Source: Odiellus spinosus | Lineage: Eukaryota; Arthropoda; Arachnida; Opiliones; Phalangiidae | Assembly (NCBI GenBank): GCA_963920705.1 | Contig: OY987225.1 | Location: 9,031,210 to 9,095,209 of the forward strand | Length of the DNA stretch: 64,000 bases | Reading direction: 5' to 3' | Part shown: positions 14,035-63,652 of the stretch, in pieces | Numbering within the stretch: the first letter of the stretch is position 1 | Layout: the number at the start of each line of letters is the position of its first letter | Program-made: the position numbers and the translations under genes | Notes under the pieces: generated by a model | Told to the model about the DNA's origin: nothing | What the model saw: only the letters and a program-made list of their open reading frames with translations | The model's database searches: none

Positions 14035-15690
14035 CTATGCTTTCTTAATGATTATCAGGTGACATATTTGGATACTTCTTGCCTTGGGAGTATTAATGTT
14101 TTTTACCGATACGTTTTTGGACTTGGTCACTGACTTTTTAGACTTCGACGGTAAAGTCACTTCTAGAGTACTATTTCCCAAAGTCGTTATATTATTTTCC
14201 ACGGACACTTTTTTGGGTTTTGTAATAGATTTCCTAGGCTTCGACGATGGCGACCGAAATTTCTGTGGCTTGGTCGGTGTGTCGATTGAAATCTTTTTTG
14301 ATGTTTTGGTTGGGCAGGGTGAGTGTGTCGATCCTGTAGATAATCTCTTTAATAGAACCTTCAGATTTCTCTTTATTAAAGGCGTTATTTTGGGATTTTC
14401 TACAAGATGATCATTAGTGATAAGGCTATGATTTAACCCCTCTTCTCTAAGTGTTCGTAGAGAAGAGGCGTCTATCCCATCTTCGACTACGATATTGCTC
14501 CCTTCAATTCTAGCGGTAGAGTCAATCTCGTTACCTTCCGTCGCTGGTGACGAATTATGAGTCTCGTTAATATCGGTTAACGATATCGCCGGGGACTTCT
14601 TGGACATCGACGAGGCTCCTTTTTTCTCCGATGGAGCTTCTTTCGGCTCAACCGGTGTTTCGGGAGTCGAAACTGTCAAATCCAGCGATAGTCTCTTTAA
14701 CACTTTGGTAGGATTTTGAGAAATAGGTGTTAATTCAAGAATATCCAGAGGGTTATCGCGATGGTCTTGGGTAGCTGGGAAATTGTTTAAGGAGAATTGA
14801 AGACCGACAATCCTTTCTTCGATTACGAGATTTTTCTCGGGAATTTTACCGGTCTCGTCTTGTTGGCGTATATCGCTATGGTCCCTCGTATCTGAAATAT
14901 CTTTAAACAAGCTCTCAAGATCGTCGATTCCTTCGGCGACCAACTGATTGTCGGCCGATCCACCAAAATCTTCCAGTTGAATTCTTGCGTGGAAATCGAA
15001 AGACGATTCCGTTTGCGAAGTCGCGCCGACGACATATTCATTGTAAATACTGGACGCCGTTTCAGTCATCATAGCCTCGGTTATTGATTGGGTAAAATTC
15101 CTTACCTCTGGCATGACTTGTGACGTTGGAAGTGCGAAATTTGTTTCTTCGCTGTTAAGGTCAAGTTCTTGAAAATACATATCGCACGCGTTAGACACAA
15201 TGAAATTACCTGCGTTTTCTATGGGCGTTTCCAGATCGGAAGAAGAATTGAGCGGATACGGAATATTACTAATCGCCGTCCGTAGCTCTACATCTCGTAG
15301 CGACTTATCGACTATAATTTCGCTTTCGTTAAGCATAGCTTCTAAATTCCCTGTTAGCAACGAAAAATCCGCACTTTGTCGCGTAGTATCTATCGGTAAA
15401 ATTTCGGCAGGGGCGTTAATCGAAAAAGCGTCATTTTGCACAATAGGGTTCTCCAACGTTTGACCGTTAGTTCCCGCCGAGATTTCCAGATTATTTACTG
15501 TTCTATCTCGTAAGTCCTCCTGTATGAGCGTCAATGCGCAGTTACGGAACGTATTGATTTTCTCGATTGCTTTATCTCTATTTTTTTGCTTTTTCGACAA
15601 AAGAGCGTTCAAGATGGTTTTCTCCATATCTTTCGATAAGCTAATATCCGCGAAAGCGCTAATATGTCGATTTAGTTGATATTCGATCAT
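14035..15690 (-). CDS. orphan 551-residue low-complexity protein
   Basis: A long intact minus-strand frame that is too long to be chance in AT-rich DNA. The N-terminal 60 residues are predicted helical and charged. The middle is acidic and Ser/Thr/Asn-rich, as in disordered proteins. The C-terminal third is basic, with two related motifs (VLKRLSLDLTVSTPETP and VLLKRLSTGSTHSPCP) and two imperfect copies of a Ser/Lys segment ending KKVSVEN or KNVSVKN, indicating an internal duplication. No enzymatic motif, signal peptide or membrane span is visible. The proline-directed Ser/Thr sites suggest a phosphorylated nuclear or regulatory protein, but that is inference. The Met at 15690 is the first in the frame, and its ATG lies in the AT-rich context expected upstream of a gene. 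Confidence 0.6.
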   Translation of the reverse strand: MIEYQLNRHISAFADISLSKDMEKTILNALLSKKQKNRDKAIEKINTFRNCALTLIQEDLRDRTVNNLEISAGTNGQTLENPIVQNDAFSINAPAEILPIDTTRQSADFSLLTGNLEAMLNESEIIVDKSLRDVELRTAISNIPYPLNSSSDLETPIENAGNFIVSNACDMYFQELDLNSEETNFALPTSQVMPEVRNFTQSITEAMMTETASSIYNEYVVGATSQTESSFDFHARIQLEDFGGSADNQLVAEGIDDLESLFKDISDTRDHSDIRQQDETGKIPEKNLVIEERIVGLQFSLNNFPATQDHRDNPLDILELTPISQNPTKVLKRLSLDLTVSTPETPVEPKEAPSEKKGASSMSKKSPAISLTDINETHNSSPATEGNEIDSTARIEGSNIVVEDGIDASSLRTLREEGLNHSLITNDHLVENPKITPLIKRNLKVLLKRLSTGSTHSPCPTKTSKKISIDTPTKPQKFRSPSSKPRKSITKPKKVSVENNITTLGNSTLEVTLPSKSKKSVTKSKNVSVKNINTPKARSIQICHLIIIKKA

Positions 15691-15699
15691 TTTTTACGC

Positions 15700-19726: not shown

Positions 19727-20005
19727 ATGACCGAATGGAGAGAAGTTCCCCGCGATTGTCAACTCTCTTGCCCGAGGTGTGATAGTGATCTCGCGTCAGT
19801 CCCAGCTCACACGAAGCTTCTTCATTTTTGTGTGTCTCGTGATTGTTACATGCACAGGAGGTGTGTATTAGTACAACAAAAGAAACATTACCGTCCACCC
19901 TTCATGATGAGTGAACGGACGGTAATGCTTGATGAACGGTTGTTCTGTCGGTGGTGTTCCGACTACAAATATACCATAAAAAATATTTGCGAATGTAAAA
20001 AATAA
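19727..20005 (+). CDS. small zinc-ribbon protein with 5' UTR intron
   Basis: A 92-residue protein of unknown function. Likely metal ligands are C15 and C18 (CPRC), then C35 and C40 with H43 (CVSRDCYMH). A second CXXC lies at 74-77, with a C-terminal CEC. The start is the ATG at 19727: it follows a good acceptor (TTTGTTTTTAG, ending 19715), and an upstream exon from a TATA promoter ends at a consensus donor (ATCG|GTAAGC at 19314/19315). This implies a 401-bp intron in the 5' UTR. The CXXC-(16 to 21)-CX4C(1 to 2)H spacing recurs at 34.3, 63.3 and 63.8 kb, defining a family. No signal peptide or membrane segment. It may be a nucleic-acid-binding or protein-binding accessory protein of the viral element. 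The function is not known. Confidence 0.65.
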   Translation: MTEWREVPRDCQLSCPRCDSDLASVPAHTKLLHFCVSRDCYMHRRCVLVQQKKHYRPPFMMSERTVMLDERLFCRWCSDYKYTIKNICECKK

Positions 20006-25771: not shown

Positions 25772-25827
25772 AAATAAAAAATAAAAAATAACCTATTTGA
25801 TTGTTTGATGTCATTATTGCACATACT

Positions 25828-26790
25828 ATGGTCACGAAACGCGTAGCTCAAGATCTGGCCCGGATATATTACGATCCGCAACACCCCGCTAGTTTAGGGT
25901 CGTCAAAAAAACTGCAATCAGCTCTCCCTCGTGTTAAGACTCGAGACGTCATCACCTGGTCAAGTCTCAACCAGCCTATACAAAACATAGAAATCGAAGA
26001 AAAAGGTTTCCGAGAAATAAGACTTTTGTTAATACTAAAGACGAAATATTCCAAGCGGATCTGGTAGATCTACCCCAGTTGGCCAAATTCAACAATATAT
26101 ATCGATATATTTTAACGGTTATTGACGTGCTATCGCGCTACGCTTGGGCTAAACCACTCAAGAAAAAAAACGGCTAACGAAATTATTCCGGCTCTCGAAT
26201 CAAATTTTCGAGAACGAACTCCTTTAAAGTTGAATACAGACGCGGGTAACGAATTTATTAATAAAGAAGTTCAAGCTTATTTAAAACGAAATGGGATCCT
26301 CTGGTACGCTAGTTATGGTAATATAAAATGTGGGATCATAGAACATTGGAATAGAACTTTAAAAAGCCGAATGAAACGACTTATGACCAAGAACCAGGAT
26401 TATAATTACTCGAAACATTTACAAAAATTGGTTGATGGTTACAATCAAACTGTCCATTCAACCATTGGGATGGCACCCAAAGATGTTACTATAAATAACG
26501 ATCATCTTGTCTGGAAAAGATTATACATGATTAGAAGCGTAAAAAGAAAAGTCCCAAAGTTACGAGTCGGTGATTTGGTTAGAATAGCGGCTGATAAAGG
26601 GGTTTTTGCTAAAGGTTATACGGGGTACTGGACAACGGAAATTTTCGTCATTAAAAAAGTCTTATTTCGAGATCCGCCCGCTTACGTCATGCAAGACGAA
26701 AATGATGAAATAATTAAGGGTAGCTTTTACGAGCCAGAGCTTCAAAAAATCGAATTAAGAATACCGAAGATTTACAACGCTTTTTGCAAT
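25828..26790 (+). pseudogene. Polinton retroviral-type integrase (F54H12.3-like)
   Basis: This gene specifies the rve-type DDE integrase that inserts Polinton DNA. The likely start is the ATG at 25828 (MVTKRVAQDLARIYYDP). The first catalytic Asp region is near 26065 (DLVDLPQLAKFNN), the second is at about 26232 (NTDAGNEF) and the Glu is at about 26340 (GIIEHWNRT). A C-terminal chromodomain-like, basic segment (LRVGDLVRIA) follows. Frame changes near 26000-26060 and near 26170 break the gene. The second Asp and Glu are 33 residues apart, slightly less than the usual 35. The 3' end runs into the protease gene. Confidence 0.85.
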
Positions 26791-27235
26791 GCGATCCCCG
26801 TACTAGACCATTTTTTATCGGGGTTTACCCTCAAGATATTCTACCCAAAAAACCAGATTTTACGCCCTTTTGTTTCGTCATCAACTCGCAACCTTCGACT
26901 GAAAGTGGATAGCATTGGATGGGCGTCTACGTGGATAAAAATGATGACGGCATTTTCTTTTGTTCTTACGGGAAAGAACCGGATTTTTACGGATTAGATT
27001 TGTCGAGATACGCCTCAAACTGGAAACACAATCTTACACAACTGCAGCCAACCAAATCTTTCTCCTGCGGCGACAACGTCATTTTTTTCTGACAAACCTG
27101 TGCTCCGGAATTTCTTTCGAAGATATCCTTCAAGAAATGTACAACAATAATGACAAAACGTACAACGACGCTATAATTATGTTAAATATGCTTATACATT
27201 TATGGAATCATAAAAATCAATCTTGTCTTGAATAA
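26770..27235 (+). pseudogene. Polinton adenovirus-type cysteine protease
   Basis: Downstream of the integrase, another frame shows the adenain-type maturation protease. The His box 'HWMGVYVDKN' is near 26914-26943, immediately preceded by an in-frame TAG. A downstream 'SFSCGDNVIFF' corresponds to the catalytic Cys region (about 27058-27090), then a stop. The C-terminal segment (EDILQEMYNNNDKTYND) continues in another frame to 27235. The enzyme would cut virion precursors during maturation. The stop and frameshift mean it is not functional. Confidence 0.75.
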
Positions 27236-27246
27236 AAATCATTTTA

Positions 27247-27582
27247 TTACTTTTTTATTTTTTTATGACAATAATAACAAAGACCACCGTAACCCGCGCC
27301 TAAAACCGAAGTTAAGACAAACAAGGCTGAATAACACAGCATTTTTACTTTTTTAAGATTAAATGATAATAGGGCTTTTACAAGAAAAGAAATAAAGTGT
27401 AAAGAATTACAACAAATAAAAAAATATGCTCGACGAAACTGCGAATCGTGAAAATAAAGACGGACTAATCCCGGACATTCGCAACAGATTGAATTCCTAT
27501 GTTTAAACTTGGTATATAAAAGGCAAAGTAACAAAATGGGTAAAAATAAAATTAACCAAAGTACAAAAATATTACTATGCAT
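27247..27582 (-). CDS. multi-span membrane protein of the Polinton
   Basis: A 111-residue frame, start ATG near 27582. It has a strongly hydrophobic N-terminal segment (residues about 5-23), a Cys-rich loop (CCECPG), a second hydrophobic stretch around residues 50-72 and a third near 80-98, with a basic end HKKIKK. Three membrane spans are plausible. It converges tail to tail with the protease gene, 12 bp apart. Polintons commonly carry a small membrane protein of unknown role, possibly in entry or egress. I recognise no specific family. The first codons overlap the end of the broken core-protein gene upstream. Confidence 0.5.
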   Translation of the reverse strand: MHSNIFVLWLILFLPILLLCLLYTKFKHRNSICCECPGLVRLYFHDSQFRRAYFFICCNSLHFISFLVKALLSFNLKKVKMLCYSALFVLTSVLGAGYGGLCYYCHKKIKK

Positions 27583-28351
27583 AAAACCAGTTTAGCAAAC
27601 TTTTTCACGATAGAATAAATCATTGTCAAATACTCCCAAAGTACTGTTCCTTTACCCGATTGTTTAGTCTTTTTGGGATTTTTCCTCATAATCATTCGGG
27701 GTGGCACATCCTCATCATCGGCAATTTCAGTAGCATCTTTCAAAGTAAGCGTACGACGGGCGTACCTTTGATGCTCTCGTTTCTCTTCTCGATTTTTCGC
27801 CTATAGTTTTTTAGCCACGCTGCTCGCGCTACGCTTCGGAGGCAGGTGAGCAACTTGTAGCGGAGGTAAAGAGGACGCCGCTTGCGAAGTCAAAAGATTC
27901 TATATCGCTTGTGACAAACGCTGGGTCTGACTGCTTGATGCTCCAGATGATATCTGAGGTGGAGGGGTAGGAGTCCCTGATATAGAAGCGAGCGGTGTAG
28001 ACGTACCAGTTGACGACAACGCTAAGGCGGGAGAAGTTGTAAAACTTGGAAACCAGCTCGGTGTAGGTGTAGGTGGAGGTCCGGGTGTAATTTGCGTCGG
28101 TCCTGTCAATGGTGGCGTTGTTATTGATATTGGTGACGTCAGACTGGCAAGTTCTGCACGTTGACGGAGGGGTGTTCTATTAAACTTTTCATGGTCAAAA
28201 ATTGTTGTAGAGTCGTCAAATAGTGTCGAAGTTTGTTTTCGGGTGACATGTTCATTTTCAAAATCCTCTTTATTTCACGATCAAGAGCTGAGGCTTCTTT
28301 ACCCGCTTCCGAGGAAAGAGCCGTTTCTGGTAACAAAACCATTCGCTTCAT
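27552..28351 (-). pseudogene. Polinton KRMVLLPE-type core protein, frameshifted
   Basis: It starts with 'MKRMVLLPETALSSE' followed by a helical segment with LDREIKRIL and a Tyr/Leu-rich helix (28351-28139), then a long Pro/Thr/Ser linker (about 28120-27900) and an acidic-then-basic tail with MRKNPKKTKQ (about 27740-27640). Frame changes near 28140, 27890 and 27780 break it. The ATG overlaps the stop of the preceding gene (28348-28351), an ATGA-type overlap. The N-terminal motif recurs in many Polinton and adintovirus-like loci, where the protein is taken to be a virion or core component. A truncated second copy lies at 60.0-60.34 kb. Confidence 0.6.
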
Positions 28352-28811
28352 CGTACCAGAGAAGAAATGGTTGAAATCAGGGTCGGTACCAGAGCACCGA
28401 TTAAACCGGGCAACAGTCCTCCAGCTTGTTTTATATACAATTTCCGATTCGTTTTGGTTGTCCCCAGTTTACTGCCTAATTGACGGACAAGACCTTGGTG
28501 CTGTTTTAGGTACAACCGGGCTTCCTCAGGTATCTCAATGTTACCGCGTAACAAGTTAAAAAACGTTTTGTTGATTGATTTAATTTGAGGGGCCTTGGCT
28601 CTTTTCAAAAACTGCTCTAGTTTTCCCCCTCCTTTTTGACTAACGTTGACTAACGTAAGAAAGGCAAGTGTTTCTTAAGGGGATGACGTTGTCTGGTAAA
28701 TCTGGTTTGTGTCCGTAAGGCCTTTCGAGCGTTCCGTAATAAAACTTTTTTCAGTAATGAGATTGGTTTTCGCTTGCTCCGCAAACGTCTTGAGGTACGT
28801 TTTCTCACCAT
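28348..28811 (-). pseudogene. Polinton membrane-active virion protein, damaged copy
   Basis: It has an Arg/Lys-rich N-terminus (MVRKRTSRRLRSKRK), a helical middle (NLLRGNIEIPEEARLYL) and a C-terminal hydrophobic segment 'GGLLPGLIGALVPTLISTI'. Relative to the intact second copy (60340-60780), indels near 28630-28660 disrupt the frame. A basic head plus Gly/Leu-rich hydrophobic tail is typical of adenovirus pVI/pX-like and Polinton small virion proteins that bind DNA and disturb membranes during entry. Confidence 0.65.
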
Positions 28812-28865
28812 GTTCTTTTAAAGTCAAGATCCGTAATTACACTTTTATTGAAGAAACAATCTTAT

Positions 28866-29519
28866 TTATTTGTCATTGCAAACAATGATCATATTACCTT
28901 CGCGAGGGAATAGGTTACTTCTTAAACGTAACTCGTCAGGCATATTTTGTTTCAAATCTATACACAAGTAAGAAAATGGATTAGCAGCCGTCACTAGATT
29001 GAAAGCTTTGGCCACGAGATTTTTGTTATGGGGAAATATTTGTCTACTCAAGTAGTTTATTTGACTTCCATCGCGAGGATTTTTGAAACATATGATATAC
29101 GAGGAATTAAGGCTAGTTGTGCGGCTTTCTTTTCCTTGCCCAAATAGATTTTGAGTTAACAAAGCCACTGACACATTTTTATGGTGCGAGGAAACACAAT
29201 AGATATTAGCAATGTGCGCGTTATTATAGCAGGTAAAGGCCAAGTCATCAATAATTAAAAAATTATGCCAATTTTCATCCCAAAAATTGGGATCTTCTGG
29301 GGGCAATTCCTCAATAAACTCCAAATTTTTTACCTCTTTCTGCATGTCTTTAAATTTTTGTTGGTACTCTTTATAACGGTACACGATCCTATTGGGTGGA
29401 GGTTCAATTAAAGTCTCGGCGTTTTTTAAAAGGTTAAATATCCAGGTGGTTTTACCACACATGGTTGGACCACTCACCAACAGCTGCATTGGGGCTTGAA
29501 ATTTGATTCGACACGACAT
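28866..29519 (-). CDS. Polinton genome-packaging ATPase
   Basis: A 217-residue ATPase of the FtsK/HerA-like packaging family that pumps DNA into preformed capsids. The Walker A motif is GPTMCGKTTW (residues about 18-27) and Walker B is FLIIDDLA (about 87-94). Further downstream are the 'SVALLTQNLFGQGKESRT' region and 'SSYIICFKNPRD', which correspond to the sensor region and the region following it in this family. The length matches Polinton and adenovirus IVa2-type ATPases. The start at 29519 overlaps the end of the GADD34-like gene by 46 bp. This copy has no visible break, whereas the second copy at 60.8-61.4 kb is frameshifted. Confidence 0.9.
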   Translation of the reverse strand: MSCRIKFQAPMQLLVSGPTMCGKTTWIFNLLKNAETLIEPPPNRIVYRYKEYQQKFKDMQKEVKNLEFIEELPPEDPNFWDENWHNFLIIDDLAFTCYNNAHIANIYCVSSHHKNVSVALLTQNLFGQGKESRTTSLNSSYIICFKNPRDGSQINYLSRQIFPHNKNLVAKAFNLVTAANPFSYLCIDLKQNMPDELRLRSNLFPREGNMIIVCNDK

Positions 29520-29668
29520 TTTTCAAATTTAAGCTCAAAATCTTTAATTCTCTTTTTAAAACGGAAATGATTGACAAAATTCCAATTGGTCCGATCCTCG
29601 ACAGGGATATACCAAATAACCGTTATCTCGTCAAATGTCACCTTCTTTATACTCTTTTCCAAATCCAT
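29474..29668 (-). CDS. GADD34/PPP1R15-like PP1-docking mini-protein
   Basis: A 64-residue frame with K9-V10-T11-F12 (KKVTF), a canonical RVxF docking motif for protein phosphatase 1. It is followed at the right distance by TVIW (16-19), an ED-R-x-x-W stretch (24-29) and RFKKRI (36-41). This ordered set is the core signature of the PPP1R15/GADD34 family, which brings PP1 to phosphorylated eIF2-alpha and restores translation. Several large DNA viruses carry such mini-proteins to defeat translational shut-off. All diagnostic residues are kept in this copy. It overlaps the BIR gene upstream and the ATPase downstream. The assignment rests on motif reading; homology has not been computed. Confidence 0.6.
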   Translation of the reverse strand: MDLEKSIKKVTFDEITVIWYIPVEDRTNWNFVNHFRFKKRIKDFELKFEKCRVESNFKPQCSCW

Positions 29669-30041
29669 CTAATACCACCTCTCGTAATGCTTCCACAAAC
29701 CTCAAAATATGTCTGTTCTCCACTGTGACTTTTTCCACAGCTACCTTGGATAATTTTTCTTGATGGGCTTCTTCGTACGCTAGCAAATTAGTTTTATCCT
29801 AATCGAGTAAAAAGGCGTAAAACGGGGCTTCTCTTTGATGTACGCTCAGTGGATATTCTTCGCTACTGCTTTCGCTCCAGTCAAATTCATTGTGACAACA
29901 GAAACATCTAGCCTTCGTTCAAGTAGAAAAAACCCGCTTCAGCTAGTTCCGAAGCTAGATACGAGTGGCGTGGCAATGTTTCGAGGCCGTCAACCAATTG
30001 ATATTGTTAAAGGTCTCCAATCTTTTACTTTCACGATACAT
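29631..30041 (-). pseudogene. BIR-domain (IAP-like) gene, dead copy
   Basis: Its start ATG (30041-30039) lies one base after the polymerase stop TAA (30045-30043). Compared with the intact copy at 61.5-61.96 kb, there is a 1-bp deletion early in the domain (near 29975), a 6-bp deletion just before the first zinc ligands (near 29910-29920), and a Gln codon turned into TAG (near 29800). The product would be an IAP-like protein with one BIR zinc domain. This copy cannot encode it. No restored version is given here. Confidence 0.75.
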
Positions 30042-30042
30042 C

Positions 30043-32964
30043 TTATTCGTTCGAATATCCAAAGGGCACTGTCGAGTATTCATCTTTGATAATTCTTTTA
30101 TTAAAGGTGACACCAAAAGTCTTCTTTAAATTACCCAGAAAAAGCTTCGCCTGACTCTTGTTGCGCACCACGTTAAAAGGGACCTCCACCGAGTACGTGG
30201 TTTCAGGTATGTCCAAGGCGGCTTTTATCGAATCAAAATTGATGATTTCTTCATTTTTTCGATTGAGGGAAATGCCTTTCATTTTCGTGACGCTTTTACC
30301 GTCGGCTGTTTTGTAGCTATATACGATTTGGGTCCTGAACACACAAATTCAGTGATATAACTACCCGGAACTTCGTCGGTCCAGTCTCCCATAAATTGAC
30401 CGAGGGGGGGGGGAATTTGTTTCGTCATTGTTCTTTCGGACAAAAAGACAAAAAATACACTATCTGTGTCAAAATATAAAACCCTGGTGCCCAACTGCTG
30501 CAAAGTTTGAAACAAGACAATGCGGTCATAGGAGCAAACTAAAGCAACCAACCACAGGCGAGCCTTTGTAGTACGTCGGACAAAAATCTTTCTTGTATTT
30601 GTAAGACAACATACAAACTTCGTCATTGAAAGGTCGCATATCAGTCAGTTCAATAGTCGGGTCTGTGACAATGGATATGTAGGCTTCGTAGGTTTTGACA
30701 AAGACCGTCTTGGGCTTGTCGTGGGACATGCAGTGACGTCCCCAATTGCAGTTGAGCACTAGCTTTGCAAGAGTTCTGAGAGGCTTGTTGCTCGTCACAT
30801 CCTCAGCTTTAATATCAATGTCTTCCCTCTCCTTGATCGCCTTCAAATATTCCGATTTTTCGGCTTCCGTTTTCACTTCTCTCGGCCATCCCGAATTTTG
30901 AATTTTCAACTTCAAAAAGGTATTGATGTACCCTCCAAAGAAACCTGGATCCTCCCCTTTAACGTAGCGGTATCTTTCAGCGTAGTGATGAACTTCGAAA
31001 ATTTCCATTATGACGTATCCAAATTCCACTGCATTGTATATTTCAACACTCGTCCAGCCGTCGAAAGCCCTTTCTTGGTCATTGTGGGTGCAAGACTCAA
31101 GATCGTTTTCCACGCATGTCTTACATATGGCAAAGAAAAGTTTACCCCTTGTTCGAAAAGGTAAAGCTGGTATATAGGCGTTTTTTGGTACCAAAATCTT
31201 GCAAGACATTAATCCAAAATAAAAATGTTTTTCTTAATTAAATTTTTTTTTAATTACTTCCGGGTGTAATTTTTGATATTCGCGGTACTAACAGACAAAG
31301 GGGTAAAGACTCATTTTATCGTAGAATAAGATCTTCTCATCCGGTTGAGCCTTTCGGTACAAAACGAGACCTTCTGTCCGACCGCCGTATAACGCGGATT
31401 TCGGACCAATTGGTTCGCGAAAAGATAGATTTACAGAATGTTTTTAGCTCCTGGTTTGTCTTCAACATTTCTTCCCATTCGCAGCTCCAGATTCGGACGT
31501 ATTCGGCATTGGGGGCGTTGGCTTTGATGGCGTCATCCCGATCTAAAGTTCTTTCGTACAGGTTTTTGAAAGAATCTTGTAACAAAGGATTCCACTGGCT
31601 ACCCTTTGTATGAAGCGGGCATCCGTGAAAAAAGTCCCCGTCGTATTGAAAAGTGATTTCTGGATTAGCGCAATACCCGTCAACCGGAAAACGACCAATT
31701 TTCTTTTCACCTCCCAACGATAAGGTGGTTATTATGTCGATGTTACGTTTCTCCGCTTCCCAGGCCAACCACTTTAATGCGGCTTGACTTTGATTGACAT
31801 TGTTTCCATATCCATTTGCCGAAACAACGCCTAAACTAAGTTCTTCCAGGTACTTCTTCGTACCACTGGCTAAACTCGGCGTAATCTTTTTCTTTCATGT
31901 ATTCAGGTTGAAAATAGTCTTTGCTAGGAAGAGGTCCGACATAATCTAGCGTATCTTCAGTATGAAAAATATAGGGGAAAAATTGTTTTTTGCTTTCCCC
32001 CAATGAAAACGTGGCGGGAAACGATCTTAAAGGCTGAGCCACAAAATTAAAGGAATCCAAGAGTTTCATTTTTTGTTGTTTCAGAAAGATGGCCAGCAGC
32101 TTGCTACCTTTAAAAAACACATCAGGGGTAATGGCCATTTTTAATAAGGCATTTAAAATGAAGAATGAGTCAAAGTTCATGCCATTATGCGATACCAGGG
32201 TATGGTCTTCAAAGACTGGAACAGTTTTCTTCATGCGTTTCGTGGCGTGTTGAATATAGGTATCTTTCGTTTGGAAGAGGTACGCCATAAACTGGTCAAT
32301 GCAGTCAAACCCTCGGAAAATACTGTAGGTGTATTCTCCGTCTTCTTCATTTTCCATGGCGCTAACCAACAGAACTGGGATATGTTCGTTATTTTTGGTC
32401 ACGGTCTCAGTGTCAAAATAACAATAACGTCTCTTTTCATACTTGGTATCCAAAGGCATGACGAAACAACGGTTTTTTCGTGTTTTCTCCGACAATGTTT
32501 ACAGGGTCTCGAACATTCGTGATTGTCTTTCAATTCTAATCCGCATTTTACACATCGTTTAAAATTTTTACACGTGCCGTTAGCTAAATGTAAATTGAGG
32601 CAATCTGGACCTTTAAAGTAAGGCCCACAGTCGCGACATCTCTGTAACGGAATGTAAAATTCTTCGTGGAAAACGTTTAGCGTACGACATCTAGTACATT
32701 TCACACGCGTCTCACAATCGTGTTCTTTTGACTATAGCGTGTAAAAATCTTTAAGCATTTGGGACAATAGGATGACCCACCCTTCAGACAATGATAATCC
32801 TTCAATATGTGCACGTGATCGTTTACAAGCACCATAAAAAAACTAGTTGGCACGTGTAAAATTAGTTTTTGATTGGTTAATTCATAGAAGATAGGATTTA
32901 GCTTTGATACAGGCAAAAAGCACGTGTAATCTAACTTCTGATTGGCTATTTCAATGTTAGACAC
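30043..32964 (-). pseudogene. Polinton protein-primed DNA polymerase B, multiply frameshifted
   Basis: This gene would replicate the element from a protein primer. Reading from 5' to 3' on the minus strand there is a Cys/His-rich N-terminal zinc-finger region (CPKC, CRTLN, CRDCGP, CVKCGL, CKHCRRKH at about 32790-32470), then the 3'-5' exonuclease with 'YCYFDTETV' (about 32425) and 'LVSHNGMNFD' (about 32190). Palm motif A is DKMSLYP (31320-31300), the central palm includes LNCNWGRHC (about 30750), and motif C 'YFDTDSVFF' is at 30475-30450. The stop is at 30043. Frame breaks occur near 32700, 32450, 31800, 31330, 31210, 30550 and 30330. The region before 32760 contains two direct repeats (CACGTGTAA...GATTGG) and may be promoter rather than coding. 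Confidence 0.85.
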
Positions 32965-33011
32965 TTTTGCTCCACGAGGTAAACTCCTTCAGTTTTAACC
33001 CTGAAAATGAG

Positions 33012-33019
33012 TATAAAAG
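33012..33019 (+). promoter_or_regulatory. TATA box of a spliced plus-strand gene
   Basis: TATAAAAG lies in GAGTATAAAAGGC, about 100 bp upstream of an ATG in a good context (AGTACCATGG, 33114). Just upstream are direct repeats with CACGTG and ATTGG boxes (about 32815, 32850, 32925), which could serve this gene, the divergent polymerase gene, or both. Confidence 0.6.
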
Positions 33020-33113
33020 GCTTTCGTAATCATTGGAAAGATATCCAAAGTTTGATTAAACTTACAACTCAAAGTTTTCTTTTTCACCGTCACTCAAAAC
33101 AACAAGAAGTACC

Positions 33114-34230: not shown

Positions 34231-34470
34231 TTAAATGTACCATGGAAAATTAAATGAAATCGCTAGATTGTAATCATTATCATTATCCAGTACATTTAAA
34301 TCGATAAATATTGGCTCGCCAGGGGATTGTATAACCAACCCGATGAGAAGCTCATGAAAGCGACACTGAGGGTTTAAGCAAAAGTAAATTAAATAGGGAA
34401 AGGTACGGATGTGAATCTCGTAGTTTAAATCAGATGAAAGACAAAAGGAACAGATGGGATTTTCAGGCAT
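34231..34470 (-). CDS. small zinc-ribbon protein, minus strand
   Basis: A 79-residue protein with likely ligands C7 and C10 (CSFC), C31 and C36 (CLNPQC) and H39, followed by a beta-rich, acidic C-terminus ending NFPWYI. The start is the ATG at 34470, because it directly follows a strong splice acceptor on the minus strand (TTGTTTCTTTGCAG, then A-ATG). This is the same arrangement as the gene at 19727. It is a divergent member of the CXXC-CX4CXXH family found near the viral genes. The function is unknown. Confidence 0.6.
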   Translation of the reverse strand: MPENPICSFCLSSDLNYEIHIRTFPYLIYFCLNPQCRFHELLIGLVIQSPGEPIFIDLNVLDNDNDYNLAISFNFPWYI

Positions 34471-43271: not shown

Positions 43272-44845
<1,574 letters not shown>

Positions 44846-49800: not shown

Positions 49801-50129
49801 GTCAATTTAATTCTTAATTTATGACTACGTTTTAGGTTTTTTTCGTGTTTTTTTCTATACTATCAGGAGTAAAAAGTTTCAAATTACATACTTATCAGTC
49901 TTGCAAAGGCTCTTTGCCATTTGGCTGCTGTTAAAAGCTATTTTTTCATAATGTGTCCGATAATAGGGGGACTGACCCTATACAGGGTGGAACAGATAAC
50001 AAAACTCAATAGCTTTTATGGGAAAAATTTTCAATGGGATTTTAACGTTGAAAATTAAAATTAGAAATTTCATCAAAATAGACCATTTCGGCGGAAAATT
50101 AAAATCAGCTTAAACAACGCTAATTTGAA

Positions 50130-53100
50130 ATTATTTTCAAAAATCGACAAAAATAACCCAAAAAATGCCAAATTGGATAATTACTTTTAAAATCGATAAA
50201 AATAGGCCAAATTGGATAATTACTTTTAAAATCGATTAAAATAGGCCAAATCGGAAAAATCCTTTTAAAATCGATAAAAATAGGCCAAATTGGATAAATC
50301 CTTTCAAATCGGTAAAAATTGGCCAAATCGGATAATTCCTTTTAAAATCGGTAAAAATAGGCCAAATCGGATAAATCCTTTTAAAATTGATAAAAATAGG
50401 CCAAATTGGATAAATCCTTTTAAAATCGGTAAAAATAGGCCAAATCGGATAAATCCTTTTAAAATCGATAAAAATAGGCCAAATTGGATAAATCCTTTTA
50501 AAATCGGTAAAAATAGGCCTAATTGGATAAATCCTTTCAAATCGGTAAAAATAGGCCAAATCGGATAATTCCTTTTAAAATCGGTAAAAATAGGCCAAAT
50601 TGGATAAATCCTTTTAAAATCGGTAAAAATAGGCCAAATCGGATAAATCCTTTTAAAATCGATAAAAATAGGCCAAATCGGATAATTCCTTTTAAAATCG
50701 GTAAAAATAGGCCAAATCGGATAAATCCTTTTAAAATCGATAAAAATAGGCCAAATCGGAAAAATCCTTTAAAATCCATAAAAATAGGCCAAATTGGATA
50801 AATCCTTTCAAATCGATAAAAATAGGCCAAATCGGATAATTCCTTTTAAAATCGGTAAAAATAGGCCAAATCGGATAAATTCTTTTAAAATCGGTAAAAA
50901 TAGGCCAAATCGGATAATTCCTTTTAAAATCGGTAAAAATAGGCCAAATCGGATAAAACCTTTTGAAATCGATAAAAATGGGCCAAATCGGATAAATCCT
51001 TTTAAAATCGGTAAAAATAGGCCAAATCGGATAATTCCTTTTAAAATCGGCAAAAATAGGCCAAATCGGATAAATCCTTTTAAAATCGATAAAAATAGGC
51101 CAAATTGGATAAATCCTTTTAAAATCGGTAAAAATAGGCCTAATTGGATAAATCCTTTCAAATCGGTAAAAATAGGCCAAATCGGATAATTCCTTTTAAA
51201 ATCGGTAAAAATAGGCCAAATTGGATAAATCCTTTTAAAATCGATAAAAATAGGCCAAATCAGATAAATCCTTTTAAAATCGATAAAAATAGGCCAAATC
51301 GGATAATTCCTTTTAAAATCGGTAAAAATATGCCAAATCGGATAAATCCTTTTAAAATCGATAAAAATAGGCCAAATCGGAAAAATCCTTTAAAATCGAC
51401 AAAAATAGGCCAAATTGGATAAATCCTTTCAAATCGATAAAAATAGGCCAAATCGGATAATTCCTTTTAAAATCGGTAAAAATAGGCCAAATCGGATAAA
51501 TTCTTTTAAAATCGGTAAAAATACGCCAAATCGGATAATTCCTTTTAAAATCGATAAAAATAGGCCAAATCGGATAAAACCTTTTGAAATCGATAAAAAT
51601 GGGCCAAATCGGATAAATCCTTTTAAAATCGGTAAAAATAGGCCAAATCGGATAATTCCTTTTAAAATCGGCAAAAATAGGCCAAATCGGATAAATCCTT
51701 TTAAAATCGATAAAAATAGCCCAAATTGGATAAAACCTTTTGAAATCGATAAAGATGGGCCAAATTGGATAAATAATTTTGAAATCGATAAAAATGGGCC
51801 AAATTGGATAAATAATTTTGAAATCGATAAAAATAGGGCAAATTGGATAAATAATTTTGAAATCGATAAAAATAGGCCTAATTGGATAAATCCTTTCAAA
51901 TCGGTAAAAATAGGCCAAATCGGATAATTCCTTTTAAAATCGGTAAAAATAGGCCAAATTGGATAAATCCTTTTAAAATCGGTAAAAATAGGCCAAATCG
52001 GATAATTCCTTTTAAAATCGGTAAAAATAGGCCAAATCGGATAAATCCTTTTAAAATCGGTAAAAATAGGCCAAATCGGATAATTCCTTTTAAAATCGGT
52101 AAAAATAGGCCAAATCGGATAAAACCTTTTGAAATCGATAAAAATGGGCCAAATCGGATAAATCCTTTTAAAATCGGTAAAAATAGGCCAAATCGGATAA
52201 TTCCTTTTAAAATCGGCAAAAATAGGCCAAATCGGATAAATCCTTTTAAAATCGATAAAAATAGGCCAAATTGGATAAATCCTTTTAAAATCGGTAAAAA
52301 TATGCCTAATTGGATAAATCCTTTCAAATCGGTAAAAATAGGCCAAATCGGATAATTCCTTTTAAAATCGGTAAAAATAGGCCAAATTGGATAAATCCTT
52401 TTAAAATCGATAAAAATAGGCCAAATCGGATAAATCCTTTTAAAATCGATAAAAATAGGCCAAATCGGATAATTCCTTTTAAAATCGGTAAAAATATGCC
52501 AAATCGGATAAATCCTTTTAAAATCGATAAAAATAGGCCAAATCGGAAAAATCCTTTAAAATCGATAAAAATAGGCCAAATTGGATAAATCCTTTCAAAT
52601 CGATAAAAATAGGCCAAATCGGATAATTCCTTTTAAAATCGGTAAAAATAGGCCAAATCGGATAAATTCTTTTAAAATCGGTAAAAATACGCCAAATCGG
52701 ATAATTCCTTTTAAAATCGATAAAAATAGGCCAAATCGGATAAAACCTTTTGAAATCGATAAAAATGGGCCAAATCGGATAAATCCTTTTAAAATCGGTA
52801 AAAATAGGCCAAATCGGATAATTCCTTTTAAAATCGGCAAAAATAGGCCAAATCGGATAAATCCTTTTAAAATCGATAAAAATAGCCCAAATTGGATAAA
52901 ACCTTTTGAAATCGATAAAGATGGGCCAAATTGGATAAATAATTTTGAAATCGATAAAAATGGGCCAAATTGGATAAATAATTTTGAAATCGATAAAAAT
53001 AGGGCAAATTGGTTAAATAATTTTGAAATCGATAAAAATAGGCCTAATTGGATAAATCCTTTCAAATCGGTAAAAATAGGCCAAATCGGATAATTCCTTT

Positions 53101-56100
53101 TAAAATCGGTAAAAATAGGCCAAATTGGATAAATCCTTTTAAAATCGGTAAAAATAGGCCAAATCGGATAAATCCTTTTAAAATCGATAAAAATAGGCCA
53201 AATCGGATAATTCCTTTTAAAATCGGTAAAAATAGGCCAAATCGGATAAATCCTTTTAAAATCGGTAAAAATAGGCCAAATCGGATAATTCCTTTTAAAA
53301 TCGGTAAAAATAGGCCAAATCGGATAAAACCTTTTGAAATCGATAAAAATGGGCCAAATCGGATAAATCCTTTTAAAATCGGTAAAAATAGGCCAAATCG
53401 GATAATTCCTTTTAAAATCGGCAAAAATAGGCCAAATCGGATAAATCCTTTTAAAATCGATAAAAATAGGCCAAATTGGATAAATCCTTTTAAAATCGGT
53501 AAAAATATGCCTAATTGGATAAATCCTTTCAAATCGGTAAAAATAGGCCAAATCGGATAATTCCTTTTAAAATCGGTAAAAATAGGCCAAATTGGATAAA
53601 TCCTTTTAAAATCGGTAAAAATAGGCCAAATCGGATAAATCCTTTTAAAATCGATAAAAATAGGCCAAATCGGATAATTCCTTTTAAAATCGGTAAAAAT
53701 AGGCCAAATCGGATAAATCCTTTTAAAATCGATAAAAATAGGCCAAATCGGAAAAATCCTTTAAAATCGATAAAAATAGGCCAAATTGGATAAATCCTTT
53801 CAAATCGATAAAAATAGGCCAAATCGGATAATTCCTTTTAAAATCGGTAAAAATAGGCCAAATCGGATAAATTCTTTTAAAATCGGTAAAAATACGCCAA
53901 ATCGGATAATTCCTTTTAAAATCGGTAAAAATAGGCCAAATCGGATAAAACCTTTTGAAATCGATAAAAATGGGCCAAATCGGATAAATCCTTTTAAAAT
54001 CGGTAAAAATAGGCCAAATCGGATAATTCCTTTTAAAATCGGCAAAAATAGGCCAAATCGGATAAATCCTTTTAAAATCGATAAAAATAGCCCAAATTGG
54101 ATAAAACCTTTTGAAATCGATAAAGATGGGCCAAATTGGATAAATAATTTTGAAATCGATAAAAATGGGCCAAATTGGATAAATAATTTTGAAATCGGTA
54201 AAAATAGGGCAAATTGGATAAATAATTTTGAAATCGATAAAAATAGGCCTAATTGGATAAATCCTTTCAAATCGGTAAAAATAGGCCAAATCGGATAATT
54301 CCTTTTAAAATCGGTAAAAATAGGCCAAATTGGATAAATCCTTTTAAAATCGGTAAAAATAGGCCAAATCGGATAAATCCTTTTAAAATCGATAAAAATA
54401 GGCCAAATCGGATAAAACCTTTTGAAATCGATAAAAATGGGCCAAATCGGATAAATCCTTTTAAAATCGGTAAAAATAGGCCAAATCGGATAATTCCTTT
54501 TAAAATCGGAAAAAATAGGCCAAATCGGATAAATCCTTTTAAAATCGATAAAAATAGGCCAAATTGGATAAATCCTTTTAAAATCGGTAAAAATAGGCCA
54601 AATCGGATAATTCCTTTTAAAATCGGTAAAAATAGGCCAAATCGGATAAAACCTTTTAAAATCGGTAAAAATAGGCCAAATCGGATAAAACCTTTTAAAA
54701 TCGATAAAAATAGGCCAAATCGGATAATTCCTTTTAAAATCGGTAAAAATAGGCCAAATCGGATAAATCCTTTTAAAATCGATAAAAATAGGCCAAATCG
54801 GATAATTCCTTTTAAAATCGGTAAAAATAGGCCAAATCGGATAAATCCTTTTAAAATCGATAAAAATAGGCCAAATCGGAAAAATCCTTTCAAATCGATA
54901 AAAATAGGCCAAATCGGATAATTCCTTTTAAAATCGGTAAAAATAGGCCAAATCGGATAAATTCTTTTAAAATCGGTAAAAATACGCCAAATCGGATAAT
55001 TCCTTTTAAAATCGGTAAAAATAGGCCAAATCGGATAAAACCTTTTGAAATCGATAAAAATGGGCCAAATCGGATAAATCCTTTTAAAATCGGTAAAAAT
55101 AGGCCAAATCGGATAATTCCTTTTAAAATCGGCAAAAATAGGCCAAATCGGATAAATCCTTTTAAAATCGATAAAAATAGCCCAAATTGGATAAAACCTT
55201 TTGAAATCGATAAAGATGGGCCAAATTGGATAAATAATTTTGAAATCGATAAAAATGGGCCAAATTGGATAAATAATTTTGAAATCGATAAAAATAGGGC
55301 AAATTGGATAAATAATTTTGAAATCGATAAAAATAGGCCTAATTGGATAAATCCTTTCAAATCGGTAAAAATAGGCCAAATCGGATAATTCCTTTTAAAA
55401 TCGGTAAAAATAGGCCAAATTGGATAAATCCTTTTAAAATCGGTAAAAATAGGCCAAATCGGATAAATCCTTTTAAAATCGATAAAAATAGGCCAAATCG
55501 GATAATTCCTTTTAAAATCGGTAAAAATAGGCCAAATCGGATAAATCCTTTTAAAATCGATAAAAATAGGCCAAGTCGGAAAAATCCTTTAAAATCCATA
55601 AAAATAGGCCAAATTGGATAAATCCTTTCAAATCGATAAAAATAGGCCAAATCGGATAATTCCTTTTAAAATCGGTAAAAATAGGCCAAATCGGATAAAT
55701 TCTTTTAAAATCGGTAAAAATAGGCCAAATCGGATAATTCCTTTTAAAATCGGTAAAAATAGGCCAAATCGGATAAAACCTTTTGAAATCGATAAAAATG
55801 GGCCAAATCGGATAAATCCTTTTAAAATCGGTAAAAATAGGCCAAATCGGATAATTCCTTTTAAAATCGGCAAAAATAGGCCAAATCGGATAAATCCTTT
55901 TAAAATCGATAAAAATAGGCCAAATTGGATAAATCCTTTTAAAATCGGTAAAAATAGGCCTAATTGGATAAATCCTTTCAAATCGGTAAAAATAGGCCAA
56001 ATCGGATAATTCCTTTTAAAATCGGTAAAAATAGGCCAAATTGGATAAATCCTTTTAAAATCGGTAAAAATAGGCCAAATCGGATAAATCCTTTTAAAAT

Positions 56101-56690
56101 CGATAAAAATAGGCCAAATCGGATAATTCCTTTTAAAATCGGTAAAAATAGGCCAAATCGGATAAATCCTTTTAAAATCGATAAAAATAGGCCAAATCGG
56201 AAAAATCCTTTAAAATCGATAAAAATAGGCCAAATTGGATAAATCCTTTCAAATCGATAAAAATAGGCCAAATCGGATAATTCCTTTTAAAATCGGTAAA
56301 AATAGGCCAAATCGGATAAATTCTTTTAAAATCGGTAAAAATACGCCAAATCGGATAATTCCTTTTAAAATCGGTAAAAATAGGCCAAATCGGATAAAAC
56401 CTTTTGAAATCGATAAAAATGGGCCAAATCGGATAAATCCTTTTAAAATCGGTAAAAATAGGCCAAATCGGATAATTCCTTTTAAAATCGGCAAAAATAG
56501 GCCAAATCGGATAAATCCTTTTAAAATCGATAAAAATAGCCCAAATTGGATAAAACCTTTTGAAATCGATAAAGATGGGCCAAATTGGATAAATAATTTT
56601 GAAATCGATAAAAATGGGCCAAATTGGATAAATAATTTTGAAATCGATAAAAATAGGCCAAATTGGATAAATCGACTTGAAATCGATAAA
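50130..56690. repeat. 39-bp minisatellite with higher-order repeats, about 168 units
   Basis: Each unit reads TAAATCCTTTTAAAATCGGT followed by AAAAATAGGCCAAATCGGA, with variants (ATTCC for AATCC, AACC-TTTTG, TTGG for TCGG). Variant 38-bp units with CCTTTCAAATCGG recur at 50523, 51144, 51882, 52310, 53048, 53515, 54253, 55343 and 55964. Spacings of 621, 738, 428 and 467 bp mark larger blocks that have been copied. Because 39 is divisible by three and the unit lacks stops in several frames, it creates long open frames on both strands (up to 370 codons). These are artefacts of the repeat and not genes. Confidence 0.95.
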
Positions 56691-57027
56691 AATAGGCCAT
56701 AGTGGTTAAATAATTTAGAAATTAACATAAATGTGCGAATTTAAAATTATCCTCCTAAACCAATAAAATTTAGGTCAAATTAGTAATTTCGTTTTAAAAT
56801 TTAAAGAAATTGCGCCAAATTTGATAATTGATATTTTTCTCCAACAACGATCAAGAATTTTCTGAAATGCGCGATATTCTCTTGAAAATACTCTTCAAAC
56901 TCCAGTAAAACAGGCCAAAATCTCGCGCGAGACTTTTTCGCGGGAAAATTGAGCAACAGATTTCGCGGGAAAATTGCGCAACAGATTTTAAAACAAAGTC
57001 TCGCGCAAATTTTATCTAAAAATTCGG

Positions 57028-57616
57028 GGAACGAATAAGAGGTCCTTTCTTTTTTGAAGAAAATTTAACTGGGCCAATTTATCTGGAATTTCTTCAAACT
57101 AGTGTTACCGAAGCCTTGCGAGAGATGCCACCAGCTGAAATGCAAGATATGTGGTTTCAGCAAGACGGAGCACCTCCGCATTACCATCGAGGCGTACGAG
57201 AGTGGCTTAACCATAGATCTCCTAACCGATGGATTGGACGGGGAAGGCCCTTTCCATTGCCACCAAGATCCCCCGATCTAACACCTTTGTACTTTTTCCT
57301 TTGGGGATACGTAAAAAGCGTTGTGTATGAATCTGAAATTCACACACTTGAGGAACTGCTGCAAAAAATTAGATCGGCTGTCGAACGAATTACTCCCGCA
57401 ACTCTAGCTAATATCCTAGGGTCAGTAATCAGTCGCGGCGAAGAATGCCTAGGAGCCGATGGGGGCATATTGAACACATGCACTAATGATTTTGGCCTGT
57501 TTTATTGGAGTTTGAAGAGAATTTTCAGGAGAATATCGCACATTTCAGAAAAATCTAGATCGTTGTTGGAGAAAAATAACAATTATCAAATTTGGCACAA
57601 TTTCTTTAAATTTTAA
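57028..57616 (+). pseudogene. DD41D transposase, N-terminally truncated, last Asp replaced by Tyr
   Basis: The frame begins with GPFFFEENLTGPIYLEF and carries 'FQQDGAPPHY' (second catalytic Asp), 'RWIGRGRPFPLPPRSPDLTP' and LYFFLWGY. The position of the third catalytic residue, 41 residues after the second, is Tyr, where Asp is expected. The C-terminal part ends at TPATLANILGS and SRGEECLGADGG, then runs on into the inverted arm to 57616. The DNA-binding domain is absent. The enzyme cannot be catalytically active, so this element was mobilised in trans, if at all. Confidence 0.85.
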
Positions 57617-60829: not shown

Positions 60830-61425
60830 CTTATAACTCGTCAGGCAGATTTTGTTTTAAATCTATACACAAGTAAGAAAATGGATTAGCAGCCGTCACT
60901 AGATGAAAAGCTTTGGCCACGAGATTTTTGTTGTGGGGAAATATTTGTCTACTCAAGTAGTTTATTTGACTTCATTCGCGAGGATTTTTGAAACATATGA
61001 TATACGAGGAATTAAGGCTAATTGTTCGGCTTTCTTTCCCTTGTCCAAATAGATTTTGAGTCAACGAAGCCACTGATAAATTTTTATGGTGACTCCCTAC
61101 ACAAAAAATACTTGGCGATGTGGGCGTTATTATAGTAGGTAAAGGCCAAGTCATCAAGAATTAAAAAATTATTCAAATTTTCATCCCAAAAATTGGGATC
61201 TTCGGGTGGCAATCCTTCTATAAACTCCAAATTATTTATCTCTTTCTGCATTTCTTTAAATTTTTGTTGGTATTCTTTGTAGCAATACACCACTCTGTCG
61301 GGCGGAGGTTCAATTAAAGTGTCGGCGTTTTTTAAAAGGTTAAATATCCAGGTGGTTTTACCACACATGGTTGGACCACTCAACAACAACTGAATTGGGG
61401 CTTGGAATTTGATTCGACACGACAT
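60830..61425 (-). pseudogene. second copy of the packaging ATPase, frameshifted
   Basis: Walker A GPTMCGKTTW and Walker B FLILDDLA are present in the first 113 codons (61425-61084). The frame then shifts near 61100, with further changes at about 60980 and an early loss of the 3' end near 60835. The first copy at 28866-29519 is open. This copy is therefore not functional. Confidence 0.8.
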
Positions 61426-61574
61426 TTTTCAAATTTAATCTCAAAATCTTTAATTCTCTTTTTCAAACGTAAATTATTGACAAAATTCCAATTGCGCCGA
61501 TCCTCGACAGGGATATAGCAAATAACCGTTATCTCGTCAAATGTCACCTTTTTTAAACTCTTTTCCAAATCCAT
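61380..61574 (-). CDS. second copy of the GADD34/PPP1R15-like mini-protein
   Basis: A 64-residue frame about 84% identical to the copy at 29474-29668. The PP1-docking KKVTF (residues 8-12) is unchanged. However, the conserved Trp at 19 is Cys, and the RF of RFKKRI (36-37) is RL, so the part expected to contact PP1-actin or substrate is weakened. It overlaps the intact BIR gene by 38 bp and the ATPase by 46 bp, exactly as in the first copy. The role suggested is recruitment of PP1 to eIF2-alpha; this copy may be degenerating. Confidence 0.5.
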   Translation of the reverse strand: MDLEKSLKKVTFDEITVICYIPVEDRRNWNFVNNLRLKKRIKDFEIKFEKCRVESNSKPQFSCC

Positions 61575-61962
61575 CTAATACCACCTCTCGTAATGCTTCC
61601 ACAAACCTCAAAATATGTTTGTTTTTCATCAAAATGGTGAGTTTTTCCACAGCTTCCTTAGCCAATTTTTTTTGATGGGCTTCTTCGTACGCTTTCAAAT
61701 TAATTTTATCCTGATCGAGTAAAAAGGCGCAAAACGGGGCTTCTCTTTGATGCACGCTCAGTGGATATTCATCGCTTCTACTTTCGCTCCAGTCAAATTC
61801 CTTGTGACAACAGAAACATCTAGTCTTACAACCTTCGTTCAAGTAAAAAAAACCCGCTTCAGCCAGTTCCGAAGCTAGATAAGAGTGGCGTGGCAAGTGT
61901 TTCGAGACCGTCAACCAATTGATATTGTTAAAGCTCTCCAATCTTTTACTTTCTCGATACAT
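61537..61962 (-). CDS. BIR-domain (IAP-like) protein of the Polinton
   Basis: A 141-residue protein with one baculovirus-IAP-repeat domain, the zinc fold that binds and blocks caspases or their activators. Visible features are R7-L8 with S10-F11 and W16 at the start, 'LAEAGFFYL' (33-41), zinc ligands C49, C52, H71 and C78 (CFCC ... H-x6-C) and W58. The C52-H71 spacing is 18, two longer than usual. Residues 85-141 form a charged helical tail. There is no RING, so self-ubiquitination is not expected. The start is the ATG at 61962, one base after the polymerase stop; an earlier in-frame TTG belongs to the polymerase end. It is followed by the GADD34-like gene with a 38-bp overlap. The frame is fully open. 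Confidence 0.85.
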   Translation of the reverse strand: MYRESKRLESFNNINWLTVSKHLPRHSYLASELAEAGFFYLNEGCKTRCFCCHKEFDWSESRSDEYPLSVHQREAPFCAFLLDQDKINLKAYEEAHQKKLAKEAVEKLTILMKNKHILRFVEALREVVLDGFGKEFKKGDI

Positions 61963-62819: not shown

Positions 62820-63360
62820 TCTGCTAGATCGGCAACCGAGATATTTAGCAAATCCTCATTGTTTAGGAGGAAATCTCCATAAAATTTTTTGAGATTCGCG
62901 CGCGCACTTTGACGGGGAGATATGATGCATCGAACAACATACTTTAGATTTTCCGAACTATTCACAGCCGAGTTGTTCTAGATTAATCACGGGGGCATTT
63001 AACAAGGTTGCTAACTCCTCACACTTCTCCAGCCCCTTGCTGTATATAATCGTGTTCTTATTAACACTTAATTTATCCAGATGTTGCTCGAGTACCGAGT
63101 ACCGTGCCAACCCGTCAGGTTCCACCGACAATATGTGTTCGAGCTCCTGATCTTGGGTGGGAGGATATCGCTGGATACGGGGGGTTTATAAGTCGATAGA
63201 TATCACTTTCACTTTGTTATTAAGAAAGATTCCAGCAGATAATTCCTTTACTTTAAATCCGTATTCCATTTTTCCTTTTTGTATGTTGTAAGCTTTCCCC
63301 GATCGCGTATACAGCATATCAACAATTAACACCTTGTTGAAGTCTATAAAATAAAAATTT
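62820..63360 (-). pseudogene. decayed unknown gene, minus strand
   Basis: Minus-strand coding-like segments are DMLYTRSGKAYNIQKGKMEY near 63330-63270, then a stop near 63190, then an open stretch of about 70 codons (QDQELEHILSVEPDG, KNTIIYSKGLEKCEELATLL). This ends at 62975 and is followed by 'CCSMHHISPSKCARE' in another frame. The pattern of a KG-E-K helix followed by a Cys/His motif and CA resembles an uncharacterised protein family common in arthropod repeats. I cannot verify that. At least three breaks are present. It lies head to head with the zinc-ribbon gene at 63283. Confidence 0.4.
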
Positions 63361-63652
63361 ATTTTTCAGGCCAAACTGCCCGTATTGTCGATCTACGGAA
63401 ACGCACGAAGTTGCGTATCCGTTTCCATCATATCCAATTCCAACAATTTACTGCATGAATGAACTTTGCATACACTATATAACCAAAGTTAAAATCTATA
63501 TTCAAGATACATCTTATTATGTAAATGTTTTTACTAATGATGGTGGGTGTAGAGTCTCAAAACATCTAGATATTTCTTTACGTATTGAGAGTCTTCTCCC
63601 TAACAAACGAAATCTGGAAGATTTTGAAATTGCGAGAATTAATTACGATTAA
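63283..63652 (+). CDS. small spliced zinc-ribbon protein
   Basis: Exon 1 is ATGTT (63283-63287), followed by donor GTAAGC. Exon 2 starts at 63370 after acceptor TTATTTTTCAG and runs to the TAA at 63652. The 82-bp intron is phase-compatible and gives M-L-P-N-C-P-Y-C at the start, 95 residues in all. Likely ligands are C5 and C8 (CPYC), C30 and C35 (CMNELC) and H37. The C-terminal part is beta-rich and charged (KVKIYIQDTSYYVNVFTND). It belongs with the proteins at 19727 and 34470 by ligand spacing and by the intron placed immediately before the CXXC. A related copy follows in tandem. Function unknown. Confidence 0.6.

Follow-up and report, generated by a model that had tools for sequence, protein, structure and literature searches.

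A candidate PPP1R15-like, PP1-docking mini-protein encoded between the BIR and ATPase genes of Polintons in Odiellus spinosus

Introduction

Does a frame of only 64 codons, squeezed between a BIR gene and a packaging-type ATPase gene in a Polinton of the arachnid Odiellus spinosus, encode a compact protein that docks to protein phosphatase 1 (PP1) and works like the core of PPP1R15 (GADD34/CReP)? The question was raised by an initial annotation of a 64,000-nucleotide stretch of the genome (GCA_963920705.1, contig OY987225.1, positions 9,031,210 to 9,095,209; here called the window), which read KKVTF, TVIW, EDR-x-x-W and RFKKRI in this frame as the PPP1R15 core in its proper order and spacing.

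According to the excerpts of PMC4394352, V641 and F643 of the RVxF motif, Y650 and I652 of the phi-phi motif and R658 of PPP1R15B touch PP1; the traced chain extends as far as W662, which lies in a PP1 pocket (excerpts of PMC8500838). For PPP1R15A, the latter excerpts have Phe592 and Arg595 directed toward actin and Arg587, Asp588, Arg591 and Arg594 toward eIF2alpha; exchange of Arg591 or Trp582 for Ala disturbs substrate binding, and the precise alignment of the parts of the complex is emphasised. PPP1R15A is also reported to be functional in yeast (PMC8500838).

Viral versions have precedents. We take DP71L (PDB 9nb9) to be a viral PPP1R15 mimic, and coGV-gp036, going by its name, is presumably a granulovirus protein. 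In the excerpts of PMC4394352, this insect-virus protein is aligned with PPP1R15 of herpes simplex virus, and those of PMC5704228 place a PPP1R15A-like gene among the baculovirus genes of probable lepidopteran origin. From these two sources, as far as the excerpts go, DNA viruses, those of insects among them, are known to carry proteins like PPP1R15. The occurrence in Polintons appears to be new: no description of such a protein was found in open-licence full texts, a search that had the founding adintovirus paper outside its range, and PMC11071296, which treats gene exchange between animals and viruses, mentions neither GADD34 nor eIF2, PP1 or phosphatase.

Results

The window carries two broken Polinton copies, each with the mini gene

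The elements in the window are classed as Polinton/Maverick by the joint presence of type-B polymerase, integrase and packaging ATPase sequences (Table 1). BIR and DNA_pol_B_2 exceed their Pfam cut-offs, whereas rve and the A32-like ATPase fall short of them. Both element copies are broken, which would explain why no terminal inverted repeats were found in positions 20500 to 38000. The predicted 64-codon frame (the mini gene) and its second copy are both present. It is tightly packed between its neighbours: in element A, the ATPase gene overlaps its end by 46 nt, and in element B, the BIR gene overlaps its start by 38 nt.

Table 1 Features of the window
Feature	Positions	Strand	Remarks
Mini gene copy A (64 aa)	29474..29668	-	64-codon open frame
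Mini gene copy B (64 aa)	61380..61574	-	open; W19 -> C, F37 -> L
Packaging-type ATPase, element A	28866..29519	-	Pox_A32 E 8.5e-4, AAA_14 E 7e-4, both under curated cut-offs
ATPase, element B, first part	61084..61425	-	frame broken
BIR gene, element A	29631..30041	-	frame broken by small length differences from the other copy; coordinates from pairwise alignment
BIR gene, element B (141 aa)	61537..61962	-	PF00653 E 3.5e-11
Type-B DNA polymerase, element A, in pieces	30526..32498	-	PF03175 E 1.7e-8 and 3.6e-9 on two pieces
Integrase core piece	26116..26997	+	PF00665 (rve) E 1.1e-5, 26.1 bits; cut-off 32.6
552-codon frame	14035..15693	-	no Pfam match; perhaps part of a host gene
Transposase-like frame, 787 codons	47018..49381	+	uninterrupted; DDE_1 E 1.1e-20, HTH_Tnp_Tc5, HTH_psq
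Mariner-type transposase-like remnant	57020..57616	+	DDE_3 E 0.0036, under cut-off
Long tandem-repeat array	43371..44712		open in several frames on both strands (self-comparison)
Long tandem-repeat array	49979..56922		open in several frames on both strands (self-comparison)
Short frame	19727..20005	+	paired CxxC motifs; by eye, the three short frames resemble one another; Pfam gave no match above cut-off
Short frame	34231..34470	-	as above
Short frame	63350..63652	+	as above

By alignment to PPP1R15 and with residue roles taken from the excerpts of PMC4394352 and PMC8500838, copy A can be read as RVxF (K9-V10-T11-F12), phi-phi (W19, I21), Arg (R26) and Trp (W29), followed by R36-F37 and K39-R40-I41. 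The four annotated motifs stand in the order claimed for them. Copy B, which keeps an Arg at the position of Arg591 but lacks the Phe, is a decayed copy. Between the two there are 11 nonsynonymous and 2 synonymous changes, and dN/dS is 1.17; for the ATPase, the BIR gene and a third gene of these two elements, it is 0.20, 0.45 and 0.31, respectively. As the changes between them include the motif positions W19C and F37L, the window pair by itself is no proof of conservation.

The mini gene is a standing gene of Odiellus spinosus Polintons

When the 64-residue protein was searched against the whole 443-Mb Odiellus spinosus assembly, at least 150 matches were obtained (300 candidates, 150 of them scored). 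They fall into a family near the window copies and into divergent families that are 44-56% identical to the query, which bears out the proposal of a regular cassette gene. Seventy loci were studied, 30 supplied with the search and 40 hand-picked from the match list. The ATPase gene follows downstream on the same strand in all 70, and the BIR gene lies upstream in 67. At the divergent loci, the ATPase is 56-73% identical to that of the window (unsplit matches), mostly 69-73%; the BIR protein reaches 66% in one locus (L094) and elsewhere mostly 37-47%. In the family of L105, L106, L113 and L130, the mini frame extends to 70-77 residues and the ATPase match begins further downstream than in the other families.

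The linkage was also examined in the reverse direction. Among 151 ATPase loci listed (715 candidates), we chose 20 that had no listed mini gene; the gene was nevertheless full-length in 15 (three with one stop), partial in four and missing from one. Three of the 15 (L139, L140 and L141) form a divergent subgroup, in which Ile replaces the Phe of RVxF and the rest of the mini-protein is conserved. With a divergent member (L131) as query, at least 150 matches were again found (223 candidates, 150 scored). All those listed have E values of at most 1.5e-9, so that more distant families, if they exist, lie beyond this view. A 1834-residue open frame around one of these matches is an artefact of a run of N. 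Taken together, the Polintons of this genome carry the mini gene as a standing component, placed after BIR and ahead of the ATPase.

Outside it, scans of IMG/VR yielded no relatives; none of 21 pattern matches there was open and in frame, and 42 ATPase-pattern matches gave nothing below E 0.01. Prokaryote genome contigs and phage records likewise contained no relatives, and PHROGs offered nothing convincing.

The frame evolves under purifying selection

Five divergent representatives are 53-58% identical to copy A over 45 residues. Among these and a sixth, dN/dS over residues 14-48, the part that is without overlap of other genes in the window copy, was 0.07-0.31 in 12 of 15 pairs, the other three being saturated at synonymous sites, as were all six comparisons with the window copy. 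In the near family, 30 loci compared with the window copy showed 11 synonymous and 14 nonsynonymous variants and one stop variant, and pN/pS was 0.26 for the mini gene versus 0.54 for the ATPase. Two comparisons with few changes each are exceptions, namely copy A with copy B (see above) and copy A with L127 (1.36). From these substitution patterns, we judge the mini gene to be real and under purifying selection. The high dN/dS and stops in related Polintons, named in the annotation as grounds for dropping its claim, are not what is seen: the frame is kept in divergent families, at low dN/dS.

Conserved residues follow PPP1R15 in order, with shorter spacing

In a nine-row alignment, E4, K5, K8, V10, T11, F12, D13, V17, Y20, E24, D25, R26, W29, I41, F44, E45 and F48 are invariant. 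The 70 loci yield 43 distinct sequences, in which the motifs were counted, some matches stopping short of the N-terminus. The RVxF form [KR]xVTF is present in 37 of 43, part of the misses being matches without the N-terminus; WY[FIL] occurs in 42, EDR in 41, EDR-x-x-W in 40 and F[KR][KR][RK]I, with the equivalents of Phe592, Arg595 and Ile, in 35. The distances of W19 and I/F/L21 from the Phe of RVxF equal those of Y650 and I652 in PPP1R15B (excerpts of PMC4394352), and F37, the basic residues 39 and 40 and I41 have the same mutual spacing as in PPP1R15.

The spacing between these parts is where the annotation went wrong. In all six representatives, the intervals from the RVxF Phe to Arg, Arg to Trp, Trp to Phe and Phe to Ile are 14, 3, 8 and 4, compared to 15-20, 4, 10 and 4 in human PPP1R15B, human PPP1R15A and the host PPP1R15. 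The cellular Arg-x3-Trp is accordingly not kept: both residues are present in six of six, but one residue closer together. A further difference concerns the position of Arg591, which is Arg in 21/21 near-family sequences and in 0/22 distinct divergent ones, where Tyr or His stands in 20/22. Conversely, an R and a D five and four residues ahead of the helix Phe are found in 21/22 distinct divergent sequences and in 0/21 of the near family, a placement that we liken to Arg587-Asp588 before Phe592 (excerpts of PMC8500838).

AlphaFold2 with the nine-row alignment predicted strands at residues 4-12 and 15-23 and a helix at 29-55, with low confidence (mean pLDDT 58; 45 with two rows). At that confidence, the modelled layout would agree with a PP1-binding half in extended form, followed by a helix from the Trp onward.

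The match to PPP1R15 is weak by E value and depends on residue order

The Pfam search proposed in the annotation failed: none of nine members matched PF10488 (PP1c_bdg) at E up to 10 (gathering cut-off 26.1 bits), while human PPP1R15B (145.3 bits) and the host exon (45.4 bits) were detected as positive controls. PPP1R15 was also absent at E up to 10 from a single-sequence search of the PDB, and it appeared as PPP1R15B at E 0.33 with the two window copies. A nine-row profile run against 177,635 PDB sequences returned PPP1R15B at ranks 2 and 3 (E 0.029 and 0.033), aligned from RVxF into the helix. Among the 27 rows, PPP1R15B was the only PP1 regulator; PPP1R15A was absent. Rank 1 was NDUFB7, matched over 23 residues of the helix (E 0.019), and the majority of the remaining rows are NDUFB7 as well. 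Kinship with NDUFB7 was rejected and the match taken as chance, as it leaves the RVxF half uncovered and the nine-row alignment has no invariant cysteine.

Scores were also compared with those of shuffled sequences. Against human PPP1R15B, an equal score was reached in 5 of 20,000 shuffles for copy A and in 4 for copy B, and in at most 3 of 5000 for six of six representatives; the weakest of eight in an earlier run was L127, with 68 of 10,000. Similarity to PPP1R15A was weak (24-576 of 5000 across the six), and that to Phactr1 (178-3889) and spinophilin (285-2933) was not significant, which ruled out a regulator of either type as the closest relative. Searched with a PPP1R15A/B profile and with PPP1R15B alone, a set of 52,428 sequences, made up of 1,028 segments of the window and 51,400 shuffled decoys, had copy A at the top, at E 1.9 and 1.6, respectively. 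A pattern of the functional residues, designed post hoc, occurred in 600 shuffled windows once with tight and six times with loose gaps. By hhalign, the nine-row profile aligned to PPP1R15A/B with P 3.9e-4 and a probability of 36%. When its columns were shuffled, which preserves composition and conservation of the profile, 0 of 2000 reached the real score of 23.2 (best 18.7), and 0 of 1500 reached 23.0 (best 20.7) once the target also included the host exon. The likeness hence extends beyond the RVxF tetrad and depends on the order of the columns.

The PPP1R15-like reading stands in so far as PPP1R15B stands out among PP1 regulators and the residues keep their order; the missing Pfam match, the spacing and the position of Arg591, replaced in 22/22 divergent sequences, speak against it.

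The host has its own PPP1R15 gene

Human PPP1R15B as query found a sole place in the genome (one candidate, E 2.3e-8; L134, G000:C14:5247720-5247866) and did not retrieve the Polinton copies. The frame reads VHF...ERKSPWEQFSRDRCRFRDRI and is directly preceded by a 497-residue open frame; this exon matches PF10488 as given above, with the spacing 20/4/10/4. The host gene has the order of motifs in common with the Polinton protein, whereas the cellular spacing, the PF10488 match and a larger, split gene are the host's alone. Given 20/4/10/4 in the host versus 14/3/8/4 in Polintons, the host gene was not the source of the Polinton gene by recent copying. An old capture and convergence are both compatible with the data.

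Discussion

Compared with the cores of PPP1R15B/CReP and PPP1R15A/GADD34 (PDB 4V0U, 4V0X, 7NZM), the Polinton protein has the same succession of RVxF, phi-phi, Arg, Trp, Phe and Lys/Arg-Ile, an EDR identical to that of PPP1R15B and, by the low-confidence model, a strand-then-helix layout. It differs in being a frame of 50-77 residues without a long N-terminal region, in three shorter spacings (14/3/8), in having mostly Tyr or His for Arg591 in divergent families, and in lying under Pfam detection. The viral mimics, to which we liken it by description only, are likewise pared-down PPP1R15 cores in DNA viruses, those of insects included; the Polinton version is distinct in its shortened spacing and in being a standing gene with BIR on one side and the ATPase on the other.

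How else might such a gene be explained? A frame that is open by chance in the space separating BIR from ATPase was suggested by the window pair, with 11 nonsynonymous changes to 2 synonymous ones and copy B decayed, and a frame spans such a gap in 172 of 3000 dinucleotide shuffles. The low dN/dS between families, the low pN/pS in the near family and the retention of the frame by five representatives whose proteins are 53-58% identical to copy A rule this out for practical purposes. A small protein that Polintons conserve for some unrelated role, such as an accessory of the virion or of packaging produced along with the adjacent ATPase, would fit the close linkage to that gene (70/70), the lack of any Pfam match, the weak E values and an NDUFB7 match just as good, the likeness to PPP1R15 then being coincidental. 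We consider this improbable, since shuffled profiles never attain the order-dependent match and the majority of the constrained positions correspond to PPP1R15 residues that contact PP1, actin or eIF2alpha.

A more serious competitor, although still an unlikely one, is a PP1 regulator with another target, which would dock via RVxF-phi-phi-Arg-Trp and use its helix to bring a different phosphoprotein, viral or cellular, to the phosphatase. The absence of Arg591 from divergent families and the shorter hinge are in line with it, and RVxF-phi-phi-Arg is common to PP1 regulators of other targets (excerpts of PMC8500838 and PMC4394352). On the other hand, the helix, too, is PPP1R15-like (RD...F..[KR]I), and no PP1 regulator besides PPP1R15B was among the 27 PDB rows; Phactr1 and spinophilin have the docking string in common and show no significant similarity, with lowest counts of 178 and 285 of 5000.

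Our main reading of the mini gene, to which we assign a probability of roughly 0.6, is that its product is a compact protein that docks to PP1, acts as the PPP1R15 core of about 70 residues does, and reverses eIF2alpha phosphorylation. The N-terminal half would run along PP1 via RVxF, phi-phi, Arg and Trp, and the C-terminal helix would present the Phe and the Lys/Arg-Ile, the residues by which PPP1R15 holds G-actin and eIF2alpha. In a complex with PP1 and G-actin, the mini-protein may then dephosphorylate eIF2alpha and undo the arrest imposed by eIF2alpha kinases. Docking to PP1 is likely, and recruitment of actin and eIF2alpha is plausible. The eIF2alpha part is the weaker of the two, because the hinge is shorter, Arg591 is absent from divergent families, and the excerpts of PMC8500838 stress alignment and report mutations that disturb substrate binding. 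The chances tilt only slightly toward the more specific version, in which the protein would be a Polinton-encoded minimal targeting subunit of an eIF2alpha phosphatase, that is, a compact PPP1R15 variant with a short hinge and an altered substrate-facing residue.

As for the benefit to the Polinton, we infer that translation would be kept running during its replication and that, with the adjoining BIR gene of anti-apoptotic type, the mini gene may form part of a host-defence module. If this is true, Polintons would oppose the integrated stress response in the manner of infecting viruses, by means of a holophosphatase of unusually short design. The shortening fixed at the proposed PPP1R15 hinge, between the PP1-facing and the actin-facing parts, along with the changed site of Arg591, would represent a natural test of substrate positioning. 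A tool against translational arrest beside a gene of the anti-apoptosis type would also argue that Polintons live, or have lived, as infectious agents that face antiviral responses, and not just as transposons.
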